A stretch of 59,930 nt of DNA from a virus: positions 1 to 59,930 of the IMG/VR virus record IMGVR_UViG_3300035195_000113; one strand, 5' to 3'. The notes under the pieces were generated by a model, which saw only the letters and a list, made by a program, of their open reading frames with translations, did no database searches and was not told where the DNA came from. Every line of letters begins with the position of its first letter. Positions within the stretch are counted from its first letter, which is position 1. The translations under genes and the position numbers were made by a program. This document shows, in pieces, positions 5,193-59,930 of this stretch.

Positions 5193-5951
5193 CTACAGGT
5201 AATCAAGCACTTGCGAGTGATCTACACTGTCTATAAGTTTTTGCACAGCTTGTTTTTTTAACTGAGAAACTCTAACATAGGAGCTACTACCTTGTATTTT
5301 TAAAGCTTTAGCTATTTCTTTAGCTGGATGCTTATCACAGTCTAAACCATAGCTAAGTCTAAGTATATTAAACTCTAACTCATTTAAATGTTTTTTAAGT
5401 AAGCCAGTTAAGTATATGTTTAGTATTTGTTGATTATATGGTTCTGATTTATCAGGTATATCATATATAGGGTTGTCGTCATTATTAGGTTTTTCATCTA
5501 TACTTAAAAATATAGAATTAAAAAACATAGCAACCATCTTTTCATCTTTACCAAAGTTTTTACGTATGTCATTTAATTTGTGCTCTGGTATACGTATATC
5601 ACCTCTGTTTATATCTATAGATCTTCTTATAGCTCCTTTAATTCTTTTACTAAAGAAAGACTTTAATGTCTTTTCATAGTCTTCTGATTTTTCTAGTGTT
5701 GGCCAGTCTAATCTATCAACAGCTTTAGTTAATCCAGCTCCGCCTGCAGATATTAAATCTAGTATACTTTGTACACCTGATGCTTGTTGGGTTGTAGAGA
5801 ATTTTCTAGCTAAGCTTTCTACTAACGGCATAAACTTAGTTATAAGCTCTTCCCTAGTACAGTCTTTCCAGTCTTTTCCTTCTAGCCTTAACAAAGCTTG
5901 TTTAAGATCTTCTTTATATCTTATATAGTTTTGTATGTTATACTTCTTCAT
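5193..5951 (-). CDS. Phage-encoded sigma-70-family RNA polymerase sigma factor
   Basis: 252 aa. Region-2-like segment: LITKFMPLVESLARKF, then DLISAGGAGLTKAVDRLDW, matching the sigma 2.1-2.4 pattern (core binding and -10 recognition). The basic KRIKGAIRRSIDINRGDIRIP resembles region 3. The C-terminus has LNELEFNILRLSYGLD, then HPAKEIAKALKIQGSSSYVRVSQL, a region-4 helix-turn-helix. It probably redirects host RNA polymerase to phage promoters, and the repeated 33-bp elements between 8.7 and 13.2 kb are the obvious candidates. The start overlaps the previous gene by 14 bases. Confidence 0.85.
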   Translation of the reverse strand: MKKYNIQNYIRYKEDLKQALLRLEGKDWKDCTREELITKFMPLVESLARKFSTTQQASGVQSILDLISAGGAGLTKAVDRLDWPTLEKSEDYEKTLKSFFSKRIKGAIRRSIDINRGDIRIPEHKLNDIRKNFGKDEKMVAMFFNSIFLSIDEKPNNDDNPIYDIPDKSEPYNQQILNIYLTGLLKKHLNELEFNILRLSYGLDCDKHPAKEIAKALKIQGSSSYVRVSQLKKQAVQKLIDSVDHSQVLDYL

Positions 5952-6552
5952 TTAATAATGTTTTTTCATGTGTTAGTTCCTTGTTCATAGTTCTATAAAT
6001 AGTTCTTGAGGAGCAATCGAGTAGACCTGCTATTCTACTTATTGTTATCTTTTTACCTAAGTGGTTCAAGTCTAACATGCATTGGTATACAGCCTCTTGG
6101 TCTACTTTGCTTGCTCTTCCTATTAGTTTACCAACTATAGACATCTTTTCCTCAGGGGTTAAGCCGCTATAGTCTTTAAATATTACCTTACGTATTCTAT
6201 TAGAAGGTGGATCACCACCTTGACTAAAAACATCTTCAATCATGTTGTTTAATATCTTTTCACTAATAAAAAAAGTTACAAATCCATTTTCTTTATCAGC
6301 TATAAACCTAAATAATGTATATAACTCTTCGGGAGTTATTTCGTTTAAATAATACAAAACAAGCATGTGCCATTTCAAAGACTTGTATGTTGTAATCTTT
6401 GCTTTACTACGAAACAAGTGATAACACTCGTACGTACCATCCGCGTAATACGCGTACTTGGCAGTATCCAGTGTGGGCTTATCGTTGATAGGATCTATTC
6501 GATACCTTATCCTACGATCATTTAGCCATTTTATTTTTCTTTCTTGTGACAT
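5938..6552 (-). CDS. Putative DNA-binding protein with C-terminal helix-turn-helix
   Basis: 204 aa. The C-terminal stretch KITISRIAGLLDCSSRTIYRTMNKEL is a clear HTH (helix, CSS turn, recognition helix RTIYRTM). The N-terminal 100 residues are aromatic and charged with no recognised domain. It overlaps the sigma-factor start by 14 bases and is coupled to it, so a role as a transcriptional co-regulator of that sigma factor is plausible. It was not recognised as a named family. Confidence 0.65.
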   Translation of the reverse strand: MSQERKIKWLNDRRIRYRIDPINDKPTLDTAKYAYYADGTYECYHLFRSKAKITTYKSLKWHMLVLYYLNEITPEELYTLFRFIADKENGFVTFFISEKILNNMIEDVFSQGGDPPSNRIRKVIFKDYSGLTPEEKMSIVGKLIGRASKVDQEAVYQCMLDLNHLGKKITISRIAGLLDCSSRTIYRTMNKELTHEKTLLNEEV

Positions 6553-8434: not shown

Positions 8435-8677
8435 TTATTTAAATTTATTTAGTTTATTTTCTACTACGTAGATTTTGTTTTTTATTTTTTCACACTGACT
8501 ATAGTTTTCTTTTTGTAAGTTAAAGTCTAATTGTGTCATAAGAGTAGCTAGTTCAGCTAACAGCTCTTCTTCTTGACTTATTTGAGGTATTGCTTCTTGA
8601 AACTCTATCTCCGATAAGCCATCTAGCACTAATTGTGCTACTCTCATAGCCATTTGTTCAATTTGTTTGTCTGTCAT
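8435..8677 (-). CDS. Hypothetical coiled-coil protein, 80 aa
   Basis: The ATG at 8677 is chosen; an upstream TTG in frame lies inside the promoter-like element. Acidic and largely helical, ending LDFNLQKENYSQCEKIKNKIYVVENKL, vaguely like the UVR helical hairpin of UvrB/UvrC, but too short to claim homology. It is the first gene after promoter-like copy 1, whose end is only five bases from the ATG. Confidence 0.6.
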   Translation of the reverse strand: MTDKQIEQMAMRVAQLVLDGLSEIEFQEAIPQISQEEELLAELATLMTQLDFNLQKENYSQCEKIKNKIYVVENKLNKFK

Positions 8678-8682
8678 ATTTA

Positions 8683-8715
8683 TATTATCCAACTGTGTTC
8701 GTATTTAGTTTGTAA
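8683..8715 (-). promoter_or_regulatory. 33-bp promoter-like element, copy 1
   Basis: Minus-strand reading: TTACAAAC, TA, AATACGA, ACACAGT, TGGATAATA. It matches five other copies in the same orientation. The ATG of the 80-aa gene lies five bases downstream, so any transcript starting here would be almost leaderless. Confidence 0.65.
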
Positions 8716-8726
8716 CGTTTTCTTGA

Positions 8727-9215
8727 TTATTGGTCTAGCGAATTCTGTTTTAAACATGGGTCTAAGGGGTTTTTACTCCAATCAGTGTATTCAAAGCCAT
8801 CATTAGTCCATTTATCTATAACAGACTGTACTTTGTTTACAAAAACACACGAGTTTTCATGGTTATTCCAACAACTTATGTAAACGTCTGGCTTACCTAC
8901 CCACATAATATAAGTATAGTGATGATCTATATTATCTACACTAGGATATAGGTATTGACTATTGTAATGAAAGTCTTTAACTAAGTGAGCTGCAATTCTT
9001 GAAGCATCACCAAAGTTAGTAAAACCTTTAACGTCTTGCATGTGTTTAACCCATTTAGCTAGCTGTACACCTTGGTATTCAGGGTAACCGTCGTGATGTA
9101 AATACATATTTACATAGCTTTTGTCACTGACCTCGCTAGGGTGTATAGCAAAACCATCTACATATTTGCTAGATTCTGATCTATGGACTACCATAGTTAC
9201 GTTTCTTGTACTCAT
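8727..9215 (-). CDS. Conserved phage protein of unknown function, 162 aa
   Basis: Starts MSTRNVTMVVH, then YVNMYLHHDGYPEYQG, DASRIAAHLVKDFHYN and DHHYTYIMWVG. This well-ordered globular pattern recalls hypothetical proteins I associate with aquatic phages; no catalytic function is known to me. It is rich in His, Tyr and Trp. ATG follows the stop of the 46-aa gene by one base (TAATATG), and it ends just upstream of promoter-like copy 1. Confidence 0.7.
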   Translation of the reverse strand: MSTRNVTMVVHRSESSKYVDGFAIHPSEVSDKSYVNMYLHHDGYPEYQGVQLAKWVKHMQDVKGFTNFGDASRIAAHLVKDFHYNSQYLYPSVDNIDHHYTYIMWVGKPDVYISCWNNHENSCVFVNKVQSVIDKWTNDGFEYTDWSKNPLDPCLKQNSLDQ

Positions 9216-9216
9216 A

Positions 9217-9357
9217 TTATTTAAATTTAGCTGCGACTTCTCTTATTTCTGCCTTGTCATCTGCATCCATTCCAGGTGTTTGTTGTGCGTACATTCTTAA
9301 TACATAATGTACAAAAGTGCAGTCGTTTTCTGTTAGTTTTATATTTCTTGTTGCCAT
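9217..9357 (-). CDS. Hypothetical protein, 46 aa
   Basis: A 46-codon ORF filling the gap between two larger genes. MATRNIKLTENDCTFVHYVLR, then an acidic MDADDKAEIREVAAKFK tail; probably helical. Both boundaries are one-base stop-N-ATG junctions, which strongly suggests a translated gene. Function unknown. Confidence 0.6.
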   Translation of the reverse strand: MATRNIKLTENDCTFVHYVLRMYAQQTPGMDADDKAEIREVAAKFK

Positions 9358-9358
9358 A

Positions 9359-9862
9359 CTATTCGTTGTTTGCTAATAAGTTTAACAAATCTACTGAAGT
9401 TTGTTCGTCTGTAGGTAAGTCTTCATAGCCTTCGTCAAGTAGTTCTTCTTTAACCTTTTCAGTATAGAATTCTACTAGTTCTATATATAAATCTCTAATA
9501 GCATCTTGCAACCAATAGTTGTCGTCATGTATATCATCTACATATATTTTAGCATCACCATGATCAGCGTCGTATACCGCTTGTTTAAATTCACCTGCAA
9601 GATCACTATCATAATAGAACACATGCTCATTAACGCTTATCTTGCTAGTGTCATATGTACTAACCCACACACCATAACCGTCTGCTGTAGTTTCTTCATA
9701 TATAAAGTGATCGCACTCATTACACCAGTCATCTGTTATTTCTAAATCGTAGTGTTTACATACCATAGCTTTAATATGTTCTTCATCGTGTGAATCAACT
9801 TCACCGTAACCTTTTTTGATTAATCTTTCTTCGATTAACTCATCTGTTATAAATTTACTCAT
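9359..9862 (-). CDS. Hypothetical acidic protein, 167 aa
   Basis: Very acidic, with runs rich in Asp and Glu (DADHGDAKIYVDDIHDD) and one CNEC pair near residue 47 that could bind metal with other Cys/His residues. The overall acidity recalls phage DNA-mimic or host-takeover proteins, but nothing specific is recognisable. The stop of the upstream 71-aa gene overlaps its ATG (ATGA). Confidence 0.6.
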   Translation of the reverse strand: MSKFITDELIEERLIKKGYGEVDSHDEEHIKAMVCKHYDLEITDDWCNECDHFIYEETTADGYGVWVSTYDTSKISVNEHVFYYDSDLAGEFKQAVYDADHGDAKIYVDDIHDDNYWLQDAIRDLYIELVEFYTEKVKEELLDEGYEDLPTDEQTSVDLLNLLANNE

Positions 9863-10074
9863 ATTTCTTTATTTATTATTTTATCTATTTTGTTTATTAA
9901 GTAATCTTTGTCTGACATATTACCATAGTATTCTTTTAATGACCAAGCTATATCCTGTAGTTTATCTTCTAACGCAGTAATATATATTTTATCATCTATC
10001 TTAATAGGCATTTGTCTTGGTTCTATTATACCTTCGTCTACCATTTCGTAGTATTTTTTTACTGAATCGCTCAT
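9859..10074 (-). CDS. Hypothetical protein, 71 aa
   Basis: MSDSVKKYYEMVDEG at the start, with a C-terminal helical segment rich in Lys and Ile. It overlaps its upstream and downstream neighbours by one and four bases, so it is translationally coupled. No domain recognised. Confidence 0.6.
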   Translation of the reverse strand: MSDSVKKYYEMVDEGIIEPRQMPIKIDDKIYITALEDKLQDIAWSLKEYYGNMSDKDYLINKIDKIINKEI

Positions 10075-10307
10075 TACTTAACAAGTTTATCGCCATACAT
10101 AAAGCTATTCCACTCTAGTCTAAATGAATCTGTGTCAGTATATGTAAGAAGATCTCTCATTTCATTGATAGTTAAGTCAGACCATGAGAATTTAGACATT
10201 AATACATACTTTAGTCTTTTAGCAGTACTATACTTTCTAGCACTAGCTTGTAATTTTGTTTTAACGTCGGGCAATAGATTGTCGTAGACGGTTTTAAGTT
10301 TACTCAT
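10074..10307 (-). CDS. Hypothetical protein, 77 aa
   Basis: First gene after promoter-like copy 2 (element ends 27 bases before the ATG). Basic N-terminal half (KTKLQASARKYSTAKRLKYVL), then a more acidic helical half. Possibly nucleic-acid binding, but unassigned. Confidence 0.6.
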   Translation of the reverse strand: MSKLKTVYDNLLPDVKTKLQASARKYSTAKRLKYVLMSKFSWSDLTINEMRDLLTYTDTDSFRLEWNSFMYGDKLVK

Positions 10308-10334
10308 ATTATTATTATATTTAATTGTTTATTA

Positions 10335-10367
10335 TATTATCCACAACCATTCGTATTATGTTTGTAA
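10335..10367 (-). promoter_or_regulatory. 33-bp promoter-like element, copy 2
   Basis: Minus-strand reading: TTACAAAC, AT, AATACGA, ATGGTTG, TGGATAATA. It lies between the 3' end of tRNA-Met and the 77-aa gene, so it would restart transcription after the RNA genes. Confidence 0.65.
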
Positions 10368-10374
10368 ATGTTAG

Positions 10375-10448
10375 GTGCGCAGGAAGGATTCGAACCTTCG
10401 ACCTCGAGTTTATGAGACTCGCGAGCTAACCATCTGCTCTACCGCGCA
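10375..10448 (-). tRNA. tRNA-Met (anticodon CAT)
   Basis: A complete cloverleaf can be drawn. Acceptor TGCGCGG pairs with CTGCGCA (one G-U), followed by T8/A9. The D arm is GAGC/GCTC with a loop containing GG. The anticodon arm is CGAGT-CTCATAA-ACTCG with anticodon CAT. The T arm is GAAGG-TTCGAAT-CCTTC. CCA is not encoded; the discriminator C is followed by CTAA. The anticodon stem lacks the three G-C pairs of initiators, so elongator Met, or Ile2 if the C34 is modified to lysidine, are both possible. Confidence 0.93.
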
Positions 10449-10456
10449 ATGTTTAG

Positions 10457-10563
10457 TGGAGGTGGGCGGAATCGAACCGCCGTTAGACACCTTTGCTAGC
10501 GTATCGATGCAATTAAGTTCATTTATACGTGTCGCCGCGGTCGTCTCTGACCTTATCACCCCC
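10457..10563 (-). ncRNA. Non-canonical tRNA-like (tmRNA tRNA-domain-like) element, 107 nt
   Basis: The 7-bp acceptor GGGGGTG/CACCTCC (one G-U) and a perfect T arm GGCGG-TTCGATT-CCGCC end at discriminator A, then CTAA. Instead of normal D and anticodon arms there is a hairpin GGTC-AGAGAC-GACC, then a long helix (GACAC/GTGTC, continued by CGTAT/ATACG) whose 3' strand ends four bases before the T stem. That layout resembles the tRNA-like domain of tmRNA, but the whole is far shorter than tmRNA and has no clear tag frame. It could also be a heavily altered class II tRNA. Confidence 0.5.
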
Positions 10564-10567
10564 TTAG

Positions 10568-10653
10568 TAACTAGTTAAGGAATCGAACCTTAATACCGTC
10601 GTAGTAATGAACTCTGTTTAATTTAATAACACCTGTTGCATCCATACCTAGTT
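10568..10653 (-). ncRNA. Non-canonical tRNA-like element, 86 nt
   Basis: Acceptor AACTAGG pairs with ACTAGTT over six of seven positions, T8/A9 follow, and the T arm is TAAGG-TTCGATT-CCTTA. It ends at discriminator A, then CTAA, five bases before the next tRNA-like element. The interior (52 nt against the usual 39 or so) gives no convincing D arm. A weak anticodon-like loop TTCATTA (CAT) can be drawn, but its stem is poor. It may be a degenerate tRNA or a member of the same unusual RNA class as its neighbour. Confidence 0.4.
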
Positions 10654-10694
10654 ATTAGTCATCGTTAGTTTTTCTGTGAAGTACTCGCCTGACA

Positions 10695-10883
10695 TTATTT
10701 TCTACGCCAAGCTCTGTGCACTGATGCACTTACTTCTTGACTTACTATTTGTATTGTATTACCTGTTTTGTGCTCGATAATAGGTACGTAAGAGTATGTT
10801 TGTGTTGTACTACAAGGCATACATGTTTTATAACCTAATGTTAATCTTACTGGGTGTACTTTATCTCCGCATTTACAATACAT
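10695..10883 (-). CDS. Small zinc-ribbon protein, 62 aa
   Basis: Two cysteine pairs: CKCG at residues 3-6 and CMPC at about 21-24, then YVPIIEHKTGNTIQIV and a basic tail. I recognise this as a small zinc-ribbon protein common in aquatic phages, with no known function. It lies downstream of promoter-like copy 3 and upstream of the tRNA-like cluster, probably in the same transcript. Confidence 0.7.
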   Translation of the reverse strand: MYCKCGDKVHPVRLTLGYKTCMPCSTTQTYSYVPIIEHKTGNTIQIVSQEVSASVHRAWRRK

Positions 10884-10910
10884 AATTTATATTTTTATTT
10901 GTTACAGTTA

Positions 10911-10943
10911 TATTATCCAAACTCATTCGTATTACGTTTGTAA
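10911..10943 (-). promoter_or_regulatory. 33-bp promoter-like element, copy 3
   Basis: Minus-strand reading: TTACAAAC, GT, AATACGA, ATGAGTT, TGGATAATA. Its 5' part overlaps the last codons of the preceding 58-aa gene. It would drive the zinc-ribbon gene and the tRNA/tRNA-like cluster. Confidence 0.65.
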
Positions 10944-11108
10944 TAATTTGTTTAACGCTACGTTGATTACATACTGTTTAGCTTCATTGTAGGCATCACC
11001 TTCAAGTTCTACTTCAGACATCTGCCAATCTACACTATCTTCTATTATTTCCATCATATGATCCGCTACACCTTGTGCTATCGTATCTAGTTCTTTCATT
11101 TTACTCAT
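10932..11108 (-). CDS. Hypothetical acidic protein, 58 aa
   Basis: MSKMKELDTIAQGVADHMMEI, then an acidic helical body ending KLLQT. ATG overlaps the previous stop by one base (TAATG). The last codons are made from the 5' half of promoter-like copy 3, so coding and promoter sequence are superimposed. Function unknown. Confidence 0.6.
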   Translation of the reverse strand: MSKMKELDTIAQGVADHMMEIIEDSVDWQMSEVELEGDAYNEAKQYVINVALNKLLQT

Positions 11109-11395
11109 TATATACAGTTATTATTATTAAAGTTTAGTAAGTGTTGTACTCTGTCTACACATTTACATATTATATCTCTTTTGTAGAAGTAGTTTGTACC
11201 TATAAATCCTTTGTAGTAATCTGGCGTTGTTACCTTTACTAGTTTGTTAATTTGATACATAGTTTTTCTACCATGATACATGTTTCTACCTTTAGTTTGG
11301 ACTCTTACATAACCACTTTCGTAACAAGCACCTAATCTTCCATCGCTCAATCTAAAATGTAGAGCTCCACTTTTTGTAATTTTTATTAGTTTCAT
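11108..11395 (-). CDS. Hypothetical basic protein, 95 aa
   Basis: N-terminal beta pattern MKLIKITKSGALHFRLSDGRLGACYESG, then basic segments (KGRNMYHGRKTMYQ) and a CKC pair near residue 78. It overlaps the preceding gene by four bases. Possibly an RNA- or DNA-binding small barrel, but no family is recognised. Confidence 0.55.
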   Translation of the reverse strand: MKLIKITKSGALHFRLSDGRLGACYESGYVRVQTKGRNMYHGRKTMYQINKLVKVTTPDYYKGFIGTNYFYKRDIICKCVDRVQHLLNFNNNNCI

Positions 11396-11631
11396 AATGT
11401 TTTTCTTATTAGTATTAACTGACTAGTGTCAAATTTCTTATGTGTATCACGCCACATTTTGTTGTGTGTGAACTTTCTAGCTTTAGAAAACGTAGATTTC
11501 TGACCTGTTTTAACTCTATTCCATTCGCTATCAGTTAAACCTGAGTGCATAGTATAATGAGAATGCTTTCGCCTGTGTTCGCTACCTTGTAACTTTCTCT
11601 GATTTTTAGAGTATTCACACAGTTCTTTCAT
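11392..11631 (-). CDS. Hypothetical basic protein, 79 aa
   Basis: The start at MKELCEYSKNQRK (11631) is chosen because it follows the upstream stop by one base; an upstream in-frame ATG lies inside the previous gene. Very basic and His-rich (SEHRRKHSHYTMH), with little acid. Likely nucleic-acid binding by composition only. Confidence 0.55.
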   Translation of the reverse strand: MKELCEYSKNQRKLQGSEHRRKHSHYTMHSGLTDSEWNRVKTGQKSTFSKARKFTHNKMWRDTHKKFDTSQLILIRKTL

Positions 11632-11632
11632 A

Positions 11633-11809
11633 TTACTTGGGTACATAAGTTAAACCTTGATAGTTAAACCATTCTGTTATACCTTCGTTGTCGTTATCTT
11701 CATTGTATATGAAGGCAAACTTTTTAGGTAGATTACTAATACTATAACCTTTATAAGTTATATTATTTAGTTTAATTGTTGATGAGTTGATAAATTTAAT
11801 TGATTTCAT
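11633..11809 (-). CDS. Hypothetical protein, 58 aa
   Basis: MKSIKFINSSTIKLNNITYKG, then LPKKFAFIYNEDNDNEGITEW. First gene after promoter-like copy 4 (element ends 15 bases before the ATG); its stop is one base before the next ATG. Beta-rich, function unknown. Confidence 0.55.
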   Translation of the reverse strand: MKSIKFINSSTIKLNNITYKGYSISNLPKKFAFIYNEDNDNEGITEWFNYQGLTYVPK

Positions 11810-11824
11810 ATTGTATATTTATTA

Positions 11825-11857
11825 TATTATCCATTACTATTCGTATTTGGTTTGTAA
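11825..11857 (-). promoter_or_regulatory. 33-bp promoter-like element, copy 4
   Basis: Minus-strand reading: TTACAAAC, CA, AATACGA, ATAGTAA, TGGATAATA. It overlaps the last seven codons of the preceding 44-aa gene, so the promoter core is read as protein (LLQTKYE). Confidence 0.65.
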
Positions 11858-11971
11858 TAACATAGATTCTAAGTTACTATTATTATACCTTGACCAGTAT
11901 TGTCTTTCTACGGCTTCAATTTGAGCTCGTGAGATCTTAATTATCTTGTGATGTGAGTGCTTTCTTTTCAT
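11837..11971 (-). CDS. Hypothetical basic protein, 44 aa
   Basis: MKRKHSHHKIIKISRAQIEAV, then YWSRYNNSNLESMLLQT. ATG overlaps the upstream stop (ATGA). Basic, His-rich N-terminus. The C-terminus runs into promoter-like copy 4. Function unknown. Confidence 0.5.
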   Translation of the reverse strand: MKRKHSHHKIIKISRAQIEAVERQYWSRYNNSNLESMLLQTKYE

Positions 11972-12171
11972 CTGTAGTCAACATTAAGTTTAATATTTGC
12001 CGCGGTTGCTTGTCTGAACTGCCACTCTCGCTTGCGATATTCGTGATTAGTACACCATTTACGCCACGCTTTACTTACAGTATTATTAGTACCATATTTA
12101 GCTTCGAACTCTTCAACTTGTTTAAGTTTAGCGTCGATCTGTTCTTGAGGGTAATCGTTATATTGTTTCAT
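11968..12171 (-). CDS. Hypothetical protein, 67 aa
   Basis: The start MKQYNDYPQEQ at 12171 is chosen since it follows the upstream stop by one base. Predicted helical, charged (QIDAKLKQVEEFEAKYG), then a Trp-rich basic part (KAWRKWC, RKREWQF). No domain recognised. Confidence 0.55.
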   Translation of the reverse strand: MKQYNDYPQEQIDAKLKQVEEFEAKYGTNNTVSKAWRKWCTNHEYRKREWQFRQATAANIKLNVDYR

Positions 12172-12172
12172 A

Positions 12173-12295
12173 TTAGTAACCGAATTTGTCATATACTTTT
12201 AGAACTTCTGACTGTTCTTTGTTAGTAAGGTTAAACACATTTTTTTCTGGGAATAGTTTATTAGCTATTCTAATTAAAGCTGATTGATTATACAT
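12173..12295 (-). CDS. Hypothetical protein, 40 aa
   Basis: MYNQSALIRIANKLFPEKNVF then a helical tail ending YDKFGY. It sits between two coupled genes, with its ATG four bases before the 45-aa gene's stop codon. Function unknown. Confidence 0.5.
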   Translation of the reverse strand: MYNQSALIRIANKLFPEKNVFNLTNKEQSEVLKVYDKFGY

Positions 12296-12299
12296 ATTA

Positions 12300-12437
12300 T
12301 TATTTTTTATTAGTTAATTTATAGAACTCTATTCTGTTAAGAACATCTTGTCTAGTTATTTTATTTTCCATTTGTTGACCGATATAGTAAGACATATCTA
12401 TTTCTTTACCGTTATCGCAAGTTAAAATCCATTGCAT
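12300..12437 (-). CDS. Hypothetical protein, 45 aa
   Basis: MQWILTCDNGKEIDMSYYIGQ, then a helix NKITRQDVLNRIEFYKLTNKK. First gene after promoter-like copy 5 (22-base leader). Function unknown. Confidence 0.5.
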   Translation of the reverse strand: MQWILTCDNGKEIDMSYYIGQQMENKITRQDVLNRIEFYKLTNKK

Positions 12438-12459
12438 ATTATTATTTATTAGTTATTAT

Positions 12460-12492
12460 TATTATCCATTAGTGATCGTATTTAGTTTGTAA
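12460..12492 (-). promoter_or_regulatory. 33-bp promoter-like element, copy 5
   Basis: Minus-strand reading: TTACAAAC, TA, AATACGA, TCACTAA, TGGATAATA. It begins immediately after the stop codon of the 37-aa gene. Confidence 0.65.
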
Positions 12493-12606
12493 TTAAACAT
12501 AACCACCTAACAATTCAAGTAATGTTTCAAGTGTGATTTCACCTGATCTATACATAGTTATGAAATCTTGATTATCCATATATTCCAAAGCTTGTTGGTG
12601 AACCAT
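12493..12606 (-). CDS. Hypothetical acidic micro-protein, 37 aa
   Basis: MVHQQALEYMDNQDFITMYRS, then EITLETLLELLGGYV. Acidic, helical and Leu-rich. It overlaps the end of the membrane micro-protein gene by 35 bases in another frame; promoter-like copy 5 starts directly after it. Confidence 0.45.
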   Translation of the reverse strand: MVHQQALEYMDNQDFITMYRSGEITLETLLELLGGYV

Positions 12607-12721
12607 TTTGTATCATATCTATTATTAGAGCGATAGAACCAAAGATTACTAATCCTACTTGTGAGTATACCCACACTCCTATTACTATATTCATTATCTT
12701 ATTGTGATGAAATTTTCTCAT
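12572..12721 (-). CDS. Membrane micro-protein, 49 aa
   Basis: Basic N-terminus MRKFHHNKIM, then one hydrophobic segment of about 24 residues (NIVIGVWVYSQVGLVIFGSI continuing to ALII) and a short polar tail. It is probably a single-pass inner-membrane protein. Size and topology would suit an inner-membrane lysis, exclusion or toxin-like factor, but no family is recognised. Confidence 0.5.
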   Translation of the reverse strand: MRKFHHNKIMNIVIGVWVYSQVGLVIFGSIALIIDMIQNGSPTSFGIYG

Positions 12722-12744
12722 AGTTTATTTATTTATTTTATTAG

Positions 12745-12825
12745 TTGTAGTGTGAGAATCGAACTCACATAAACCATTACTACATTGATCTCACCAGTTT
12801 GTGTACTATTCTGGTTCGGTGAGTC
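12745..12825 (-). ncRNA. tRNA-like mini-helix with upstream hairpin
   Basis: At 12745-12784: stem TGTAGT/ACTACA flanks a ten-base linker and a perfect T arm GTGAG-TTCGATT-CTCAC, ending in discriminator-like A and then CTAA. There is an acceptor stem and T arm but no D or anticodon arm. Just upstream (12787-12825) lies a hairpin with arms GACTCACC and GGTGAGATC (one bulged A). No complementary 5' acceptor strand was found for a normal cloverleaf. It may be a degenerate tRNA or a genuine minimal tRNA mimic. Confidence 0.4.
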
Positions 12826-12888
12826 ACCATTACTTGTTAACATTTTTATACTTATAGAGACAAGTGGAACATAAAGTTTATTGATAGT

Positions 12889-13119
12889 TTACTGTACTTC
12901 GACTATCTCTCTTGCGATTACTGGAACACTAGTGGAAGAAGTGTAAGATTTGTACTTTAAGAAACAGTTCATAGTTTCTAGTTTTGACTTCATTACTTCA
13001 TATACTTTATCATGATTGTAAGTGACTGACTTACCTGATTTGAAGTTAACAGTGATTGTTTGATTTTTACCGATTAGTGATTGTCTGATGACGAATCTTT
13101 TTGAAATTAAGTTACTCAT
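12889..13119 (-). CDS. Hypothetical basic protein, 76 aa
   Basis: MSNLISKRFVIRQSLIGKNQTI then VNFKSGKSVTYNHDKVYEVMK; basic, beta-rich first half. It is the first minus-strand gene leftward from the divergent control region, with promoter-like copy 6 48 bases upstream, so it is probably expressed early or strongly. Function unknown. Confidence 0.55.
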   Translation of the reverse strand: MSNLISKRFVIRQSLIGKNQTITVNFKSGKSVTYNHDKVYEVMKSKLETMNCFLKYKSYTSSTSVPVIAREIVEVQ

Positions 13120-13167
13120 AGTTGTAAGAATTATTTAGTTATTATTATTATTTATTTGTTACATAGA

Positions 13168-13200
13168 TATTATCCATTTACAATCGTATTATGTATGTAA
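13168..13200 (-). promoter_or_regulatory. 33-bp promoter-like element, copy 6
   Basis: Minus-strand reading: TTACATAC, AT, AATACGA, TTGTAAA, TGGATAATA. One base differs from the others in the first block. It faces left from the divergent control region. Confidence 0.65.
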
Positions 13201-13227
13201 AAAGTATATGAATTGTTTAGTAGTAGA

Positions 13228-54679: not shown

Positions 54680-57600
54680 ATGGAAGAATTAGAATTGATC
54701 GTCCAAAGAATGATGGACGCTGGTGAGTCAGAGGAAAACATTAAAGCAGTCGTGCAGGAGTTTTCTGCGGGAAAGCAAACGGATCCTGTAAATGTGGAGG
54801 CAAATGCGGGGTCGGAAAAAGATATGGCCTCAAGATCGGAAGATGGTTTATCGGCTTGGCAGTCGGTTAAAAACTCATTTTCAAATATGTTCGAGCAAGT
54901 TGGCGATCTTGGTGAATTTTGGCTCGATCCAGGTGGTGAAGGTGAAGGTGCTAGATCCTCTTTAGATGTCGCGACTAACGCTGTTTACGCGGGTATTTTT
55001 GGTCAAGATGCCTTAGATAATTATGTTAAAGAGAAGGGTGAAGACTCATGGATGGCCCAAGGTCTTGGTAGTGATAAAACTCTAGAGTCAATAAAAAAAC
55101 ACGAAAAAGAAAAACAAGAATCCAAGCAAACCTTAGGCATCATTGAAAGTGCGAAAGAAGGTGATATTGGAGGTCTTTTAGCTGGAGGTGTAAATGCTAT
55201 TACTAGCATGATTGGTAGTGTTGCTTATGGAGTCGGTACGTTAGGTACTGGATTCTTTATGGATTATGTTGCTGAAAATTATATTGAGTTTAATAAACTA
55301 AAAGCTGAAAACCTAGGTATAAGCCTTGATGAGTTAATAAATAGTGGGAAAGCTGATCACGCAACACCAATAGGTATGGGTGCTATATCAACTGGTTTGG
55401 AACTTGTTGGTTTAGGTACTGTTTTGAAAGCAGGAAAAGGAGCTATTAAAGGCTCTTCAAGCACAGGTTTAATAGGCAGCGCTAATAAGTATATAGCTGA
55501 AAAATTAATATACAGCTCTAGCGCTAGAAAAGCTGTGTCAATTTTAGGTGCTGGTTCTACTGAATTTACAACAGAAATACTACAACATGCTTCTGACGAG
55601 ATAAATAGAGAATTTGGTAGTGTAGCTGGAACCGATAAGGAGGCTGAAATAGCTAAAACTTTTGTAGATGCTATAACTAGCGAAGAAGGACTAGAGGCTG
55701 GTATACAGGGTTTCCTCGGTGGAGGTGGAATGGTTGGAGGATCTTACTCAGCTAAAGCTATGAGCACTATACGTAGCACTGTTGATGGTAATAAGATTGA
55801 TAAAGATATAACTGAATTATCAAACTTAAGAAATCAACACAAAAACGCAACAGACAAAGACGTTAAAGAAGGTATACAAATAGAGATAGATAAAAAAGAA
55901 TCAGAAATATCAGACTCTATAAGAAAAGGTAATGAAATATACAACAGCCTTAACAGTGATCAGATAAGTGAAATAGAAAGTTTAACAGACTTAGCTGACG
56001 TGGCTGCTTTCAAAATAACTGATTTAAACAAGAAGCTTAGAAGAGGAGATATAACACAGTCTCAATATGATTCAGCTTCTATAGGTTTTAAAAACCAGTA
56101 TAAAAAAGCAAGACAGTCTTTAATAGACATGAACCTTGAAAAAAATATTGAGTTTGCTAAAAAAGAAGCAGAATCAAGAGGTTTAAAATTCAGAGTGTAC
56201 GAAACAACTAAAGCATTGCAAAAAGCAATGAATAGGTTTAAAACTAGTAAAGAAAATAAGCAAGAATTTAAAGATAACAAAGGTAATATACATGGTTTTA
56301 GTATAGGCAACGAGATTTTTATTAATAAAGAGGTTGCTAGGGAACAGGGAGCTATAAACGTAGGTGCTCACGAGGTTTTACACCCTATTTTTAATAAGTT
56401 AATTGGAGATGTTAAGAACCAAGGTAAATACGTCAAGCAGTTTAGAAAATCAATGACATCTGCTCAACGTAGTTTTGTGGATAACCAAATGAAAGAAAGA
56501 GGTTATACTAGCAAAGATCAATATAATACTGAGTATATAAACGTTTTCTCTGATGCTTTAAGAAACAAACAAATAAACTACGATAAAAACACATTTGAGA
56601 AAATAGGTGATGCTGTTTTAAGTATTATAAAACCAAAAGGATATGAAAATGCTTCTTTTGCAAATGGTAAGGAGGTTTATAACTTTATAAAAGAATATGA
56701 CAAAAGTATACAACAAGGAAAACTAACTAAATCAGCTAAAAAAGCCTTAGGTGACGTAGATCTTAGCGATGCTAGTCTTGAAGGTTCGATGCAGCAGAGT
56801 CAAGAAGCTGTTCAAGAAGTTAATGATATATACAACAATACTACGGATAAACAAATTGCAGGTTTTGACATAGCTGATAAATATAGAGGAATGGCTGAAT
56901 CTGTGTTTAATAGTTTAAAGGAAGGTAGTAATTATACGCAGAATCAAAAAGAGGTATTTAACGGTAAGAAAGAAGATATGCTTGCTATGATGTTGTATGA
57001 TAAAATACCTAGCCAAAAAGAAGACTCTAAAGCTAGGAATGTAGTTGGTTTAGTTCAAGACTTTGAATCTAAAAAACAAAAATATAATAACGTTGCCGCT
57101 TATGTAAATACTTTTTTCAAAGAAAGATCTAAAGAAGTATTTAAGTATTTTTCTAAAGATGCTGTTAACGAAGGTTTAACTAAGGAGGACGGTACTCTTA
57201 AGACTGCTGTTAGTAGTAAAACAAACGAAACATCTAATATAGACCAAGGCAAGAAGGCTAGAAAACTAAGCAGCTTTGATAAACTAATGAAAGGTGACAA
57301 GTCTTTTGTTGACCCTAAAATAAAAAGCAATATAATAACAAAGCTTACTAAAAACTTAAAAAGAATAGCTTTTAAAGGTAGGTTTAATGCTGAAAACATA
57401 ACTAACGAAATTAAAAGTTTAATAAAGCAAGAGATAGAAAACACTGTTGTTAAACGTATGGGTAAGATCAGTAAAACAAAAACTGGTGTTATCGTTAGTG
57501 AAGAGTATAAGAGCTTCCACAGTGAAAACTTTAACTCCATAATTAAAGCTCTACCTATATCTGTTATAAAGAAAAAATATCTTAAACTATTTAATTCTAA

Positions 57601-59930
57601 AAAAATAGCTAGAGAGAAAACAGGACCTGGTAACGCTATATTTGAAATAAAACCTACATCTAAAGGCGAGTTTGGTGCTTATTTTACTATAGGTGGTTAC
57701 ACAACATTAAGAGCTAGACAAAGGTCTTTAGCTAATGAAATTAGTGCTGAGATCATAAAAGATCAAGCTACTATTTTAAAACAAGATATTGATTTTGTTA
57801 GAGAATTAGCGGAGGTTGCTGACCTTAGTGGTGTACAAGTGACAGAGTTAGTGTTACAAACAGAGCTAGAGTCTTTAGCTAATCAGTTTGATAGAAAGAA
57901 AACAGAAGCTACTAAGTTTGATAGAATACAGTTTTCTAAAAACTTTAATAACGATCAAGTAAGTGAGTTAAACAAGAAAGGCAAAAAAATAATAGAACTA
58001 AGCAAAGTGTACACCACTGCTTCGTCTTTAGCAAACAAGCTAATTGAGATACTTGATCCTAAAGTTTTTACAGTTAAAGAGCTAAAAGACTGGAAAAATG
58101 AAATACAATCTAGTGTTAACGCTATATTAAGCCCTAAAAACACTTTACAGGATAATAAGCTAGGTGAGTATGTTGAGCAAAGAGTTGGGAACAAAAGCGA
58201 TCTACCTTTAATAAGAATGCTTGGTTTAAAGTCTTACGACGTGGTTATTAATGGTGTAAAAAAGAAATTTGCTAGTTTTGCTGAAGTTTTTAGAGACAAA
58301 AAATACATAGAGAGACAAAGAAAGCTTCATTTAGACTTTTTTGAACAAAAAGTAAAAACATTAGATGATTTAGTCTCGGTTTTAAAATGGTTTCCAGGCC
58401 ACACAATATCAGCTGGGGCAAGGTATTTCATGAAGTCAAGGAACCAGTCGTTTGCTGGTATGAAAGATTTAGTAGCGGAGCTTAATAAAATACTAGAACC
58501 TTTAGGTTGGGAGATAAAAACAAAGCTAACGATAGATGGTAAAACGCAGTTAGACAAAGTAATCAGCACAAAAACTGGAGAGGTTTTAATAGACAACAAA
58601 GACAAGGTAGTTGGTAAAAAGAAAATAAAATCACTTAGAAATCGCTTAACATCGTCGTCTCAAGATACTAATAAAACTGTTTTGCAGTACATAAAAGAGC
58701 TTCCTCAAAGAATAAAAGATGCGAATGAAGCTTGGAACACTATGATAGATTTTTTAACTTTTGTTAACAAAAACGGTGATAACTTAGATTTTGGAATGAC
58801 TATGATGAGTTTAAAATCTAACATGAGTAGTATGTTGAAAGCTGCTGCTCCTTTAACTTATTATTTTGAAGGGTCATATGTTGGTAAGTTAGTGTATGAG
58901 CATTTAATACCTACAGAGTACGTAGCTCAATCTTTAACTAAGCATTTTAAGATCAAAAAAATAAATTTAAATTCTTTACAAGATCAATACAAGGTCGCTA
59001 TAGTTCCTAAAACAATGGACGACAATATAAATGGGTCTGCTAGACAAGAAAATATGCCTACTTACTGGCAAATTGGCATGGAAGCTTTATTAAGATATTT
59101 TGATGATTTTACTTTTGGTTTTAAAAATATGTATGCTTTAAAAAACCTCCAAACAGGTGATATAGTAGGTAAAAAACATGCGAACGTTCAATTTTCTAAA
59201 ACAGCTAAAATAAAAGCAGAAAACTTTAATAAAGCTATGATGAACGCTAGAAATCCTAATGCACCTGAAAAAGGTATTAGTGTTTTTGATTTTGATGATA
59301 CAATAGCTCAATCTAATAGTAAAGTACTATACGAATTACCTGATGGTAAAAAAGGCAGTATAAATGCCACGGAGTTTGCTTTACAATCTGCTGACTTAGA
59401 ATCTGCTGGCGCAGTGTTTAACTTTGAAGAGTTTAGTAAAGTTATAGAGGGTAAAAAAGGCCCATTATTTGACCTAGCAATGAAGCGTCAAGATAAGTTT
59501 ACTAGTAAAGATATATTTATATTAACAGCTAGACCACAAGAGGCAGCATTTGCTATACACGCATTTTTAAAAGGTATGGGTTTAACTATACCTTTAGATA
59601 ACATAACTGGTTTAGCTGATGGTAAGCCTTCTGCTAAAGCTGATTGGATAATAAGCAAGGCAGCTGAAGGTTACAATAACTTTTACTTTGCGGATGATGC
59701 TTATAAGAATGTTAAAGCTGTACAAAAAGTATTAGACATAATAGACGTTAAAAGAGATGTTCAATTAGCTAAGATACAATTTAGCAAGGATATGGGTGAG
59801 TCTTTTAACGATATATTAGAACAAACAAAAGGTGTTGCTTCTGAAAAAAGATTTTCTAAAGCAGCTGCAAAATCAAGAGGTAGAGATATAGGTAAGTGGA
59901 AGTTTTTCTTACCACCTTCTGCGGAAGACT
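54680..59930 (+). CDS. Giant polyvalent-type virion protein with HExxH and HAD phosphatase domains (partial, >1750 aa)
   Basis: Open from ATG at 54680 to the window end (1750 codons, no stop). Segments: acidic N-terminus; Gly/Ala-rich, possibly membrane-active part (ISAMIGS-like region near 165-200); an HExxH motif AHEVLHPIF at H564, E565, H568; long helical middle; and a HAD phosphatase domain with motif I DFDDT (D1537/D1539), motif II ILTARP (Thr1616), motif III Lys around 1654 and motif IV FADDAYK (D1672/D1673). A repeated QFSK/RFSK peptide occurs at about 1084, 1504, 1700 and 1724. This fits the polyvalent proteins that phages inject with their DNA; N4-type vRNAP was considered, but no RNAP motifs were seen. 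Confidence 0.8.
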   Translation, partial: MEELELIVQRMMDAGESEENIKAVVQEFSAGKQTDPVNVEANAGSEKDMASRSEDGLSAWQSVKNSFSNMFEQVGDLGEFWLDPGGEGEGARSSLDVATNAVYAGIFGQDALDNYVKEKGEDSWMAQGLGSDKTLESIKKHEKEKQESKQTLGIIESAKEGDIGGLLAGGVNAITSMIGSVAYGVGTLGTGFFMDYVAENYIEFNKLKAENLGISLDELINSGKADHATPIGMGAISTGLELVGLGTVLKAGKGAIKGSSSTGLIGSANKYIAEKLIYSSSARKAVSILGAGSTEFTTEILQHASDEINREFGSVAGTDKEAEIAKTFVDAITSEEGLEAGIQGFLGGGGMVGGSYSAKAMSTIRSTVDGNKIDKDITELSNLRNQHKNATDKDVKEGIQIEIDKKESEISDSIRKGNEIYNSLNSDQISEIESLTDLADVAAFKITDLNKKLRRGDITQSQYDSASIGFKNQYKKARQSLIDMNLEKNIEFAKKEAESRGLKFRVYETTKALQKAMNRFKTSKENKQEFKDNKGNIHGFSIGNEIFINKEVAREQGAINVGAHEVLHPIFNKLIGDVKNQGKYVKQFRKSMTSAQRSFVDNQMKERGYTSKDQYNTEYINVFSDALRNKQINYDKNTFEKIGDAVLSIIKPKGYENASFANGKEVYNFIKEYDKSIQQGKLTKSAKKALGDVDLSDASLEGSMQQSQEAVQEVNDIYNNTTDKQIAGFDIADKYRGMAESVFNSLKEGSNYTQNQKEVFNGKKEDMLAMMLYDKIPSQKEDSKARNVVGLVQDFESKKQKYNNVAAYVNTFFKERSKEVFKYFSKDAVNEGLTKEDGTLKTAVSSKTNETSNIDQGKKARKLSSFDKLMKGDKSFVDPKIKSNIITKLTKNLKRIAFKGRFNAENITNEIKSLIKQEIENTVVKRMGKISKTKTGVIVSEEYKSFHSENFNSIIKALPISVIKKKYLKLFNSKKIAREKTGPGNAIFEIKPTSKGEFGAYFTIGGYTTLRARQRSLANEISAEIIKDQATILKQDIDFVRELAEVADLSGVQVTELVLQTELESLANQFDRKKTEATKFDRIQFSKNFNNDQVSELNKKGKKIIELSKVYTTASSLANKLIEILDPKVFTVKELKDWKNEIQSSVNAILSPKNTLQDNKLGEYVEQRVGNKSDLPLIRMLGLKSYDVVINGVKKKFASFAEVFRDKKYIERQRKLHLDFFEQKVKTLDDLVSVLKWFPGHTISAGARYFMKSRNQSFAGMKDLVAELNKILEPLGWEIKTKLTIDGKTQLDKVISTKTGEVLIDNKDKVVGKKKIKSLRNRLTSSSQDTNKTVLQYIKELPQRIKDANEAWNTMIDFLTFVNKNGDNLDFGMTMMSLKSNMSSMLKAAAPLTYYFEGSYVGKLVYEHLIPTEYVAQSLTKHFKIKKINLNSLQDQYKVAIVPKTMDDNINGSARQENMPTYWQIGMEALLRYFDDFTFGFKNMYALKNLQTGDIVGKKHANVQFSKTAKIKAENFNKAMMNARNPNAPEKGISVFDFDDTIAQSNSKVLYELPDGKKGSINATEFALQSADLESAGAVFNFEEFSKVIEGKKGPLFDLAMKRQDKFTSKDIFILTARPQEAAFAIHAFLKGMGLTIPLDNITGLADGKPSAKADWIISKAAEGYNNFYFADDAYKNVKAVQKVLDIIDVKRDVQLAKIQFSKDMGESFNDILEQTKGVASEKRFSKAAAKSRGRDIGKWKFFLPPSAED

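Follow-up and report, generated by a model that had tools for sequence, protein, structure and literature searches.

We have analyzed a repeated element in IMG/VR virus record IMGVR_UViG_3300035195_000113, a stretch of 59,930 bp (the window) that is the entire viral record. The genome is podovirus-like and its two arms diverge. GroEL is encoded on the plus arm together with the virion proteins, namely terminase, portal, a capsid-like protein and one related to the crAss-type muzzle. The minus arm runs from about 13.2 kb down to 0.6 kb. It has many small genes first, followed by those for DNA ligase, a pyrimidine-dimer glycosylase-like protein, a helix-turn-helix (HTH) protein and a sigma factor, and then by those for an ERF recombinase, a nuclease-like protein, a primase/helicase and thymidylate synthase. 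All six copies of the element lie among the small genes of the minus arm, at 8.7-13.2 kb. Comparison of sequences leads us to propose, with a probability of about 0.86, that they are promoters recognized by RNA polymerase when it carries the sigma factor that the phage itself encodes (5193-5951, minus strand).

Each copy has the form TTACAAAC-N2-AATACGA-N7-TGGATAATA. A scan of the window allowing up to three mismatches gave exactly six matches, all on the minus strand, at 8683-8715, 10335-10367, 10911-10943, 11825-11857, 12460-12492 and 13168-13200 (copies 1 to 6). Five are perfect and copy 6 has one mismatch (TTACATAC). In 100 dinucleotide-preserving shuffled controls the mean number of matches was 0.00 and the maximum 0. 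The original prediction had described these six copies, with fixed spacing and a mismatch in copy 6 only, and was exact; the search of the whole record that it proposed gave no further copy in 59,930 bp. A looser pattern, AATACGA-N7-TGGATAAT, gave extra matches across the record that all had three mismatches, at the level of chance. A seventh 'copy' at 12685-12730, placed by an anchored motif finder, was rejected as a chance match overlapping the start of open reading frame (ORF) 12572-12721.

A search of related phages had been proposed as well. The exact pattern AATACGA-N7-TGGATAATA occurs in at least 119 IMG/VR stretches, many of the contigs having two to seven copies. Using the sigma gene as bait, and ignoring the motif, we obtained 281 relatives in a first IMG/VR scan. 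A repeat finder anchored on GATAAT and on the similarity of the 30 bases upstream of it was applied to the 10-kb region preceding each distinct sigma, and distinct sigmas with at least 8 kb of upstream sequence were counted (n = 116). A sense-strand cluster of three or more members was found upstream at 114 of the 116 loci, most often with seven or eight copies. The same finder gave 6 loci on the antisense strand and 7 in Markov-shuffled sequence. The exceptions are L256 (and its near relative L258), with the same upstream blocks and TATAAT at the position of GATAAT, and L360, again with the same blocks and a -10 that is mostly GATATT.

In the reverse test the sigma was encoded in 29 of 50 motif-bearing records, and in 19 of the 20 that are 55 kb or longer. 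Two of these 19, G031 (L028) and G060 (L066), have the gene broken across two overlapping frames with internal stops, reflecting decay, frameshift or assembly error. Both sigma and element are missing from four annotated relatives (phi38:1, an elemo phage, Panino and MW202828.1), and a search of INPHARED for the sigma gave no match. All four infect, or probably infect, Bacteroidota, and MW202828.1 has a terminase with 62% identity. The original prediction had named the phage sigma or its HTH partner as the reader; the presence of the element at 114/116 sigma loci, of the sigma in 19/20 long records, and the absence of the element where there is no sigma strongly favor the former. As a separate observation, the early region of MW202828.1 (L405:43700-48000 and beyond) has 15 spaced copies of a perfect 16-bp palindrome, GTGTCGTTAACGACAC, several of them directly ahead of start codons. 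This may be a regulatory element of that phage's own.

The geometry of the element was determined from 962 copies pooled from 130 distinct phages (sigma loci). The pooled blocks are TACAAAC at -37 to -31 (block 1, -35-like), AATACGA at -28 to -22 (block 2, within the spacer) and GATAAT at -12 to -7 (the -10). A set of 224 copies drawn by the core AATACGA-N7-TGGATAATA alone recovers the first block independently. At positions -9 to -4 relative to the core these have T 83%, A 97%, C 97%, A 97%, A 90% and A 83%, then C, T or A, and their consensus is TTACAAACTA-AATACGA-N7-TGGATAATA-TAAAT[G/A]TAACAAATAA. Further conservation is seen in the relatives, as TA between blocks 1 and 2 and TATAAAT[G/A]TAA beyond the last block. 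Overall the conservation spans -38 to about +2, interrupted by variable bases in the seven positions that follow AATACGA.

A purine occupies the position 7 nt past the final T of GATAAT in 916 of the 962 copies (95%), compared with 29% one base before it, 54% one base after and 57-79% further downstream. This is where a start is expected for a -10 at -12 to -7. In two relatives TATAAT replaces GATAAT at the same place, and this fixes the promoter register. Both the sense-strand families at 114/116 sigma loci and the purine in 95% of copies strongly support the promoter function originally proposed. In every window copy ACAAAC (-36 to -31) is separated from GATAAT by 18 bp, and ACAAAC, not TTACAA, is the more likely functional -35 register. 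It had been suggested that a distance of 20 bases from TTACAA to GATAAT was abnormal. The count is correct, but the ACAAAC register gives an 18-bp spacer. Nor is the architecture unlike that of sigma70 promoters, as had been claimed, given the -10 at -12 to -7, the purine start 7 nt on, the 18-bp spacer and a GATAA in common with sigma28. The elements have two features of the sigma70 family, a fixed distance of about 7 nt from the -10 hexamer to the purine of the predicted start and a -35 block that precedes the -10 by 16-19 bp. The spacing is ordinary for such enzymes; what is unusual is the sequence and the extra block at -28 to -22.

All six predicted starts in the window are purines. That of copy 1, which comprises TTACAAAC, AATACGA and TGGATAATA, is at 8677, the A of the start codon (ATG) of ORF 8435-8677, so that the leader is 0 nt and the mRNA is predicted to be leaderless. 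Copy 2 lies just downstream of tRNA-Met (10374-10448), with a predicted start at 10329 (A) and a 22-nt leader to the ATG at 10307. Copy 3 overlaps the 3' end of ORF 10932-11108; here the predicted start is at 10905 (G), again with a 22-nt leader (ATG at 10883). For copies 4 and 5 the predicted starts are at 11819 (A) and 12454 (A), with leaders of 10 and 17 nt to ATGs at 11809 and 12437 respectively. Copy 6 is the outermost, at the divergent early/late boundary, with a predicted start at 13162 (G) and a 43-nt leader (ATG at 13119). Over all copies, the distances from the predicted start to the following start codon cluster at 0, +2, +10/11 and +20-22. An ATG falls exactly at the predicted start in 47 of the 962 elements, so some of the transcripts would be leaderless.

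At 13195-13225 (minus strand), and on the outer copies in L130, L129, L132, L171, L327 and others, there is an upstream extension, ACTAAACAA-n-TATACTTTT, that runs into block 1. It is present in 36 of 390 first-to-third copies, compared with 15 of 599 later copies. It may be an early promoter that overlaps the element.

Repeats spaced along one strand can also serve as operators, RNA-processing sites or replication or packaging signals, and the 15 palindromes in the early region of the sigma-less MW202828.1 lend this some support. However, the purine at the -10-to-start distance, the replacement by TATAAT, the placement of the elements mostly 0-45 nt ahead of start codons and their association with the sigma gene are all features of promoters. 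A role of these other kinds is very improbable. A second possibility is that the elements are early promoters that the host polymerase reads by means of one of the host's sigma factors. They sit in a small-gene cluster that is typical of early phage regions, and the first transcription of the sigma gene needs some other reader. Yet the four sigma-less relatives from Bacteroidota, or probably so, lack the element, and its wording varies by phage lineage, which is unexpected for one host factor. Moreover the Bacteroidota housekeeping promoters have the consensus TTTG/TAnnTTTG (PMC6847099). The probable host group is common to both but the consensus is not; the elements have GATAATAT at -12 to -5 in place of the Flavobacterium -7 element TAnnTTTG, which is absent from them, in agreement with the difference noted originally. 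A search of the window for TAnnTTTG host promoters gave scattered matches and no clear early promoter. We consider reading by a host sigma factor to be unlikely.

The phage sigma factor is a protein of 252 amino acids belonging to the sigma70 family, with regions 2 and 4. It matches PHROG 351 with E = 9.8e-19, and the Pfam families for regions 2 and 4 weakly, both below the cut-off. When its profile was compared with the PDB the best match was to FliA/sigma28 (7.5e-9), and the region-4 helix YVRVSQLKKQAV aligns with RVSQLKAKAL of FliA. A Foldseek search with the predicted model matched sigma chains within RNA polymerase structures. FliA is thus the nearest solved relative, and the GATAA core is found in the -10 of sigma28 promoters, TAAAGTTT-n11-GCCGATAA (PMC2859248). 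Unlike these, the elements have no GCC at -15 to -13, so that the -10 sequence GCCGATAA is not found; they have TACAAAC at -35 instead of TAAAGTTT and the extra AATACGA block, and there is no flagellar context. Since only the GATAA core is common to the two, the elements are not sigma28 promoters.

We propose that region 4 of the phage sigma would bind the -35-like TACAAAC (-37 to -31, extending to -30), and that region 2 would bind and melt the -10 GATAAT (-12 to -7). Transcription would begin at the purine 7 nt downstream of the -10, 0-43 nt ahead of the next start codon. AATACGA (-28 to -22) would provide an additional specific contact, plausibly made by the holoenzyme or a co-factor. The proposed promoters are spread along the early-side small-gene cluster and point in the direction of the replication genes and of the genes for the HTH protein and the sigma; once made, the sigma would thus amplify its own synthesis. 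What we observe directly is the elements, with their conservation, geometry and strand, and their almost complete association with the sigma; we infer the start sites, the assignment of blocks to proteins and the timing.

The HTH protein (204 amino acids; 5938-6552, minus strand) is a possible co-factor. Its gene overlaps the start of the sigma gene by 14 bp, and adjoins it in most relatives. It has weak HTH matches at the C terminus, all below the cut-off, and the AlphaFold model has a predicted local distance difference test (pLDDT) value of 88; a fold search against the PDB gave nothing at E 0.001. The elements might be read jointly by the sigma and this partner, with the partner on AATACGA (or part of block 1) as a co-activator of the T4 MotA type. 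T4 middle promoters consist of a MotA box and a sigma70 -10. The elements are like these in having a specific block upstream of the -10 that is possibly read by a phage DNA-binding partner. They are unlike them in that the sigma is phage-encoded, there are two upstream blocks, and the partner is dispensable in some relatives. Joint reading would account for a block within the spacer, which is unusual for sigma alone. In addition, a clade of HTH proteins with Pro117 pairs with C at -13 in 19 of 21 cases in several sigma lineages, and this includes pairs with sister sigmas but different HTH proteins (L285/L270 and L328-L340/L338).

The HTH gene was not, however, detected beside the sigma in L138, L174, L204/L289, L403 and L404. 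For L138 no homologue is detectable in the whole 68.8-kb record; the L174 and L204 records are fragments. It appears that in this sub-lineage the gene has been lost or moved beyond detection. The upstream sequence of L403 is too short for motif detection. In the other five (L138, L174, L204, L289 and L404) block 2 (TAATACGA or TAATAC.A) and the -10 GATAAT are kept, and block 1 is different. The HTH partner is therefore not the sole reader of block 2, unless it has been replaced, and as these phages retain two of the three blocks we rejected the HTH protein as sole reader. This weakens the HTH alternative of the original prediction. The variation of block 2 does not follow HTH divergence, and the fold has no significant PDB match. 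Joint reading is possible, but on balance doubtful.

If the phage sigma reads the elements, its sequence might be expected to vary with theirs. Residue 230, in the recognition helix of region 4, was compared with base -30. Q with T was found in 59 phages and E with A in 27, with exceptions Q/A in 7 and E/T in 14 (Fisher p = 4e-9, uncorrected for ancestry). This covariation is suggestive of region 4 reading block 1. In a partial Mantel analysis sigma region 4 tracks -30/-29 (r = 0.16, p = 0.003). Several observations weigh against our interpretation. Residue 230 changes about six times on the tree, and an independent-pairs test is not significant and without power. The gene of a control nuclease tracks -30/-29 almost equally (partial Mantel r = 0.15). 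The same analysis ties block 2 to neither protein, and ties block 1 weakly to sigma regions 2-3. The sigma and the element are inherited within one phage lineage, so that their co-occurrence is not independent for each phage. Lastly, the late genes have no preceding element, so that the promoter system would be restricted to one arm of the genome. With too few tree-aware pairs, and a control gene that also tracks -30, we rejected covariation as proof of the assignment of proteins to blocks. Mutual information with background correction returned many top residues that would not contact DNA. The original suggestion that AATACGA is an extra contact remains plausible, the block-2 covariation tests having assigned no protein to it.

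AATACGA resembles the start of the T7 promoter, TAATACGA, with a seven-base match, and crAss-like phages, relatives of this one, carry virion RNA polymerases. The elements might thus serve as promoters of a phage RNA polymerase that is single-subunit (T7-like) or borne in the virion. But only the first bases of the T7-like promoter TAATACGACTCACTATAG match. In the elements the remainder is variable, including the seven bases past AATACGA, and conservation, with GATAAT as the -10, extends from -38 to about +2. No T7-type polymerase was found in six relatives, though the search's own controls also went undetected. The virion side of the window has a giant ORF (54680-59929, plus strand) of more than 1750 amino acids, truncated by the end of the contig, and the visible 1750 amino acids match no Pfam or PHROG family. 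We give very little credence to a polymerase of this kind, and return to the phage sigma.

Within the lineage the -10 is nearly constant and the upstream blocks vary. The commonest code is TACAAACT/AATACGA, with a variant TACAAACA/AATACAA. L138, L204, L289, L174 and L404 have [T/A]CGAAA/TAATACGA, L179 and L182 have CACGGACTT, and L136 has CCCCCCAACT. A sigma with 57% identity has the element CACAAATTAAA..GATAAT. Another with 52% identity, from a Saprospiraceae bin, has nine copies of TTGCAGATnTATAACGA-N9-TATAAT (TTGCAGAT-n-TATAACGA..TATAAT), in which the block spacing is the same base for base but the letters are different. The bins of the sigma relatives are Saprospiraceae, Sphingobacteriales, Lewinella and Flavobacteriaceae, and the hosts are therefore probably Bacteroidota. 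Aliivibrio, Halieaceae and Ilumatobacteraceae bins in the same list are probably mis-binned. We suggest tentatively, with somewhat less than even confidence, a three-point sigma promoter in which the base-specific AATACGA contact is required, with a private code (TACAAAC, TCGAAA, CACGGAC or TTGCAGAT; GATAAT or TATAAT) that has been repeatedly rewritten alongside the sigma and its partner. This would have yielded dozens of diverged, perhaps mutually insulated, sigma-promoter pairs.

Promoters read by phage sigma factors are known elsewhere. The late promoters of phage 7-11, GTAAtg-16-aCTA, are read by the phage sigma SaPh711_gp47 (PMC8948821). As here, a podovirus encodes a sigma that has a two-element promoter of its own, placed ahead of several of the phage's operons, and a distantly related phage sigma (15% identity) uses another code. 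The 7-11 promoters differ from the window elements in sequence and lack the spacer block. They drive late genes, whereas the window elements lie on the early-side arm that includes the sigma gene. The middle and late promoters of phiEco32, tAATGTAtA, are read by its sigma gp36 (PMC8948821), which likewise reprograms the host polymerase, and transcription starts 6-8 bp downstream of the element. Unlike phiEco32, with a single -10-like element and a gp36 lacking region 4, the window has a -35-like block and a sigma with region 4. The finding appears to be a phage sigma regulon of known type, with unusual letters and a spacer block. Literature searches with the motif letters returned unrelated papers only, those on phage sigma factors and on crAss-like or flavobacterial phages turned up no promoter of this form, and no phage-sigma regulon for Bacteroidota phages was found.

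These elements give a concrete basis for the transcription program of a large group of uncultured phages (281 sigma relatives in one IMG/VR scan), whose promoters, start sites and operons could be annotated by sequence alone. The roughly 130 naturally varied sigma-promoter sets provide data on base choice by sigma region 4 and its partners. They might also supply insulated promoters for use in Bacteroidota, in which the housekeeping promoters are unlike those of other bacteria.

A further feature lies beside copy 2. A short RNA (76-120 nt) with the tRNA-like ends of transfer-messenger RNA (tmRNA) is found at 10454-10563 (minus strand) in the window, and at L141:5070-5189 and L129:5410-5485 (both plus strand). 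That of the window begins GGGGGUGAU and finishes GGUUCGAUUCCGCCCACCUCCACUA, and scores 39 bits against the Rfam tmRNA model (cut-off 47; E = 4e-13). It is too small for the usual message and pseudoknots. It is followed directly by tRNA-Met and then by element copy 2, and RNAs of this kind recur in relatives.

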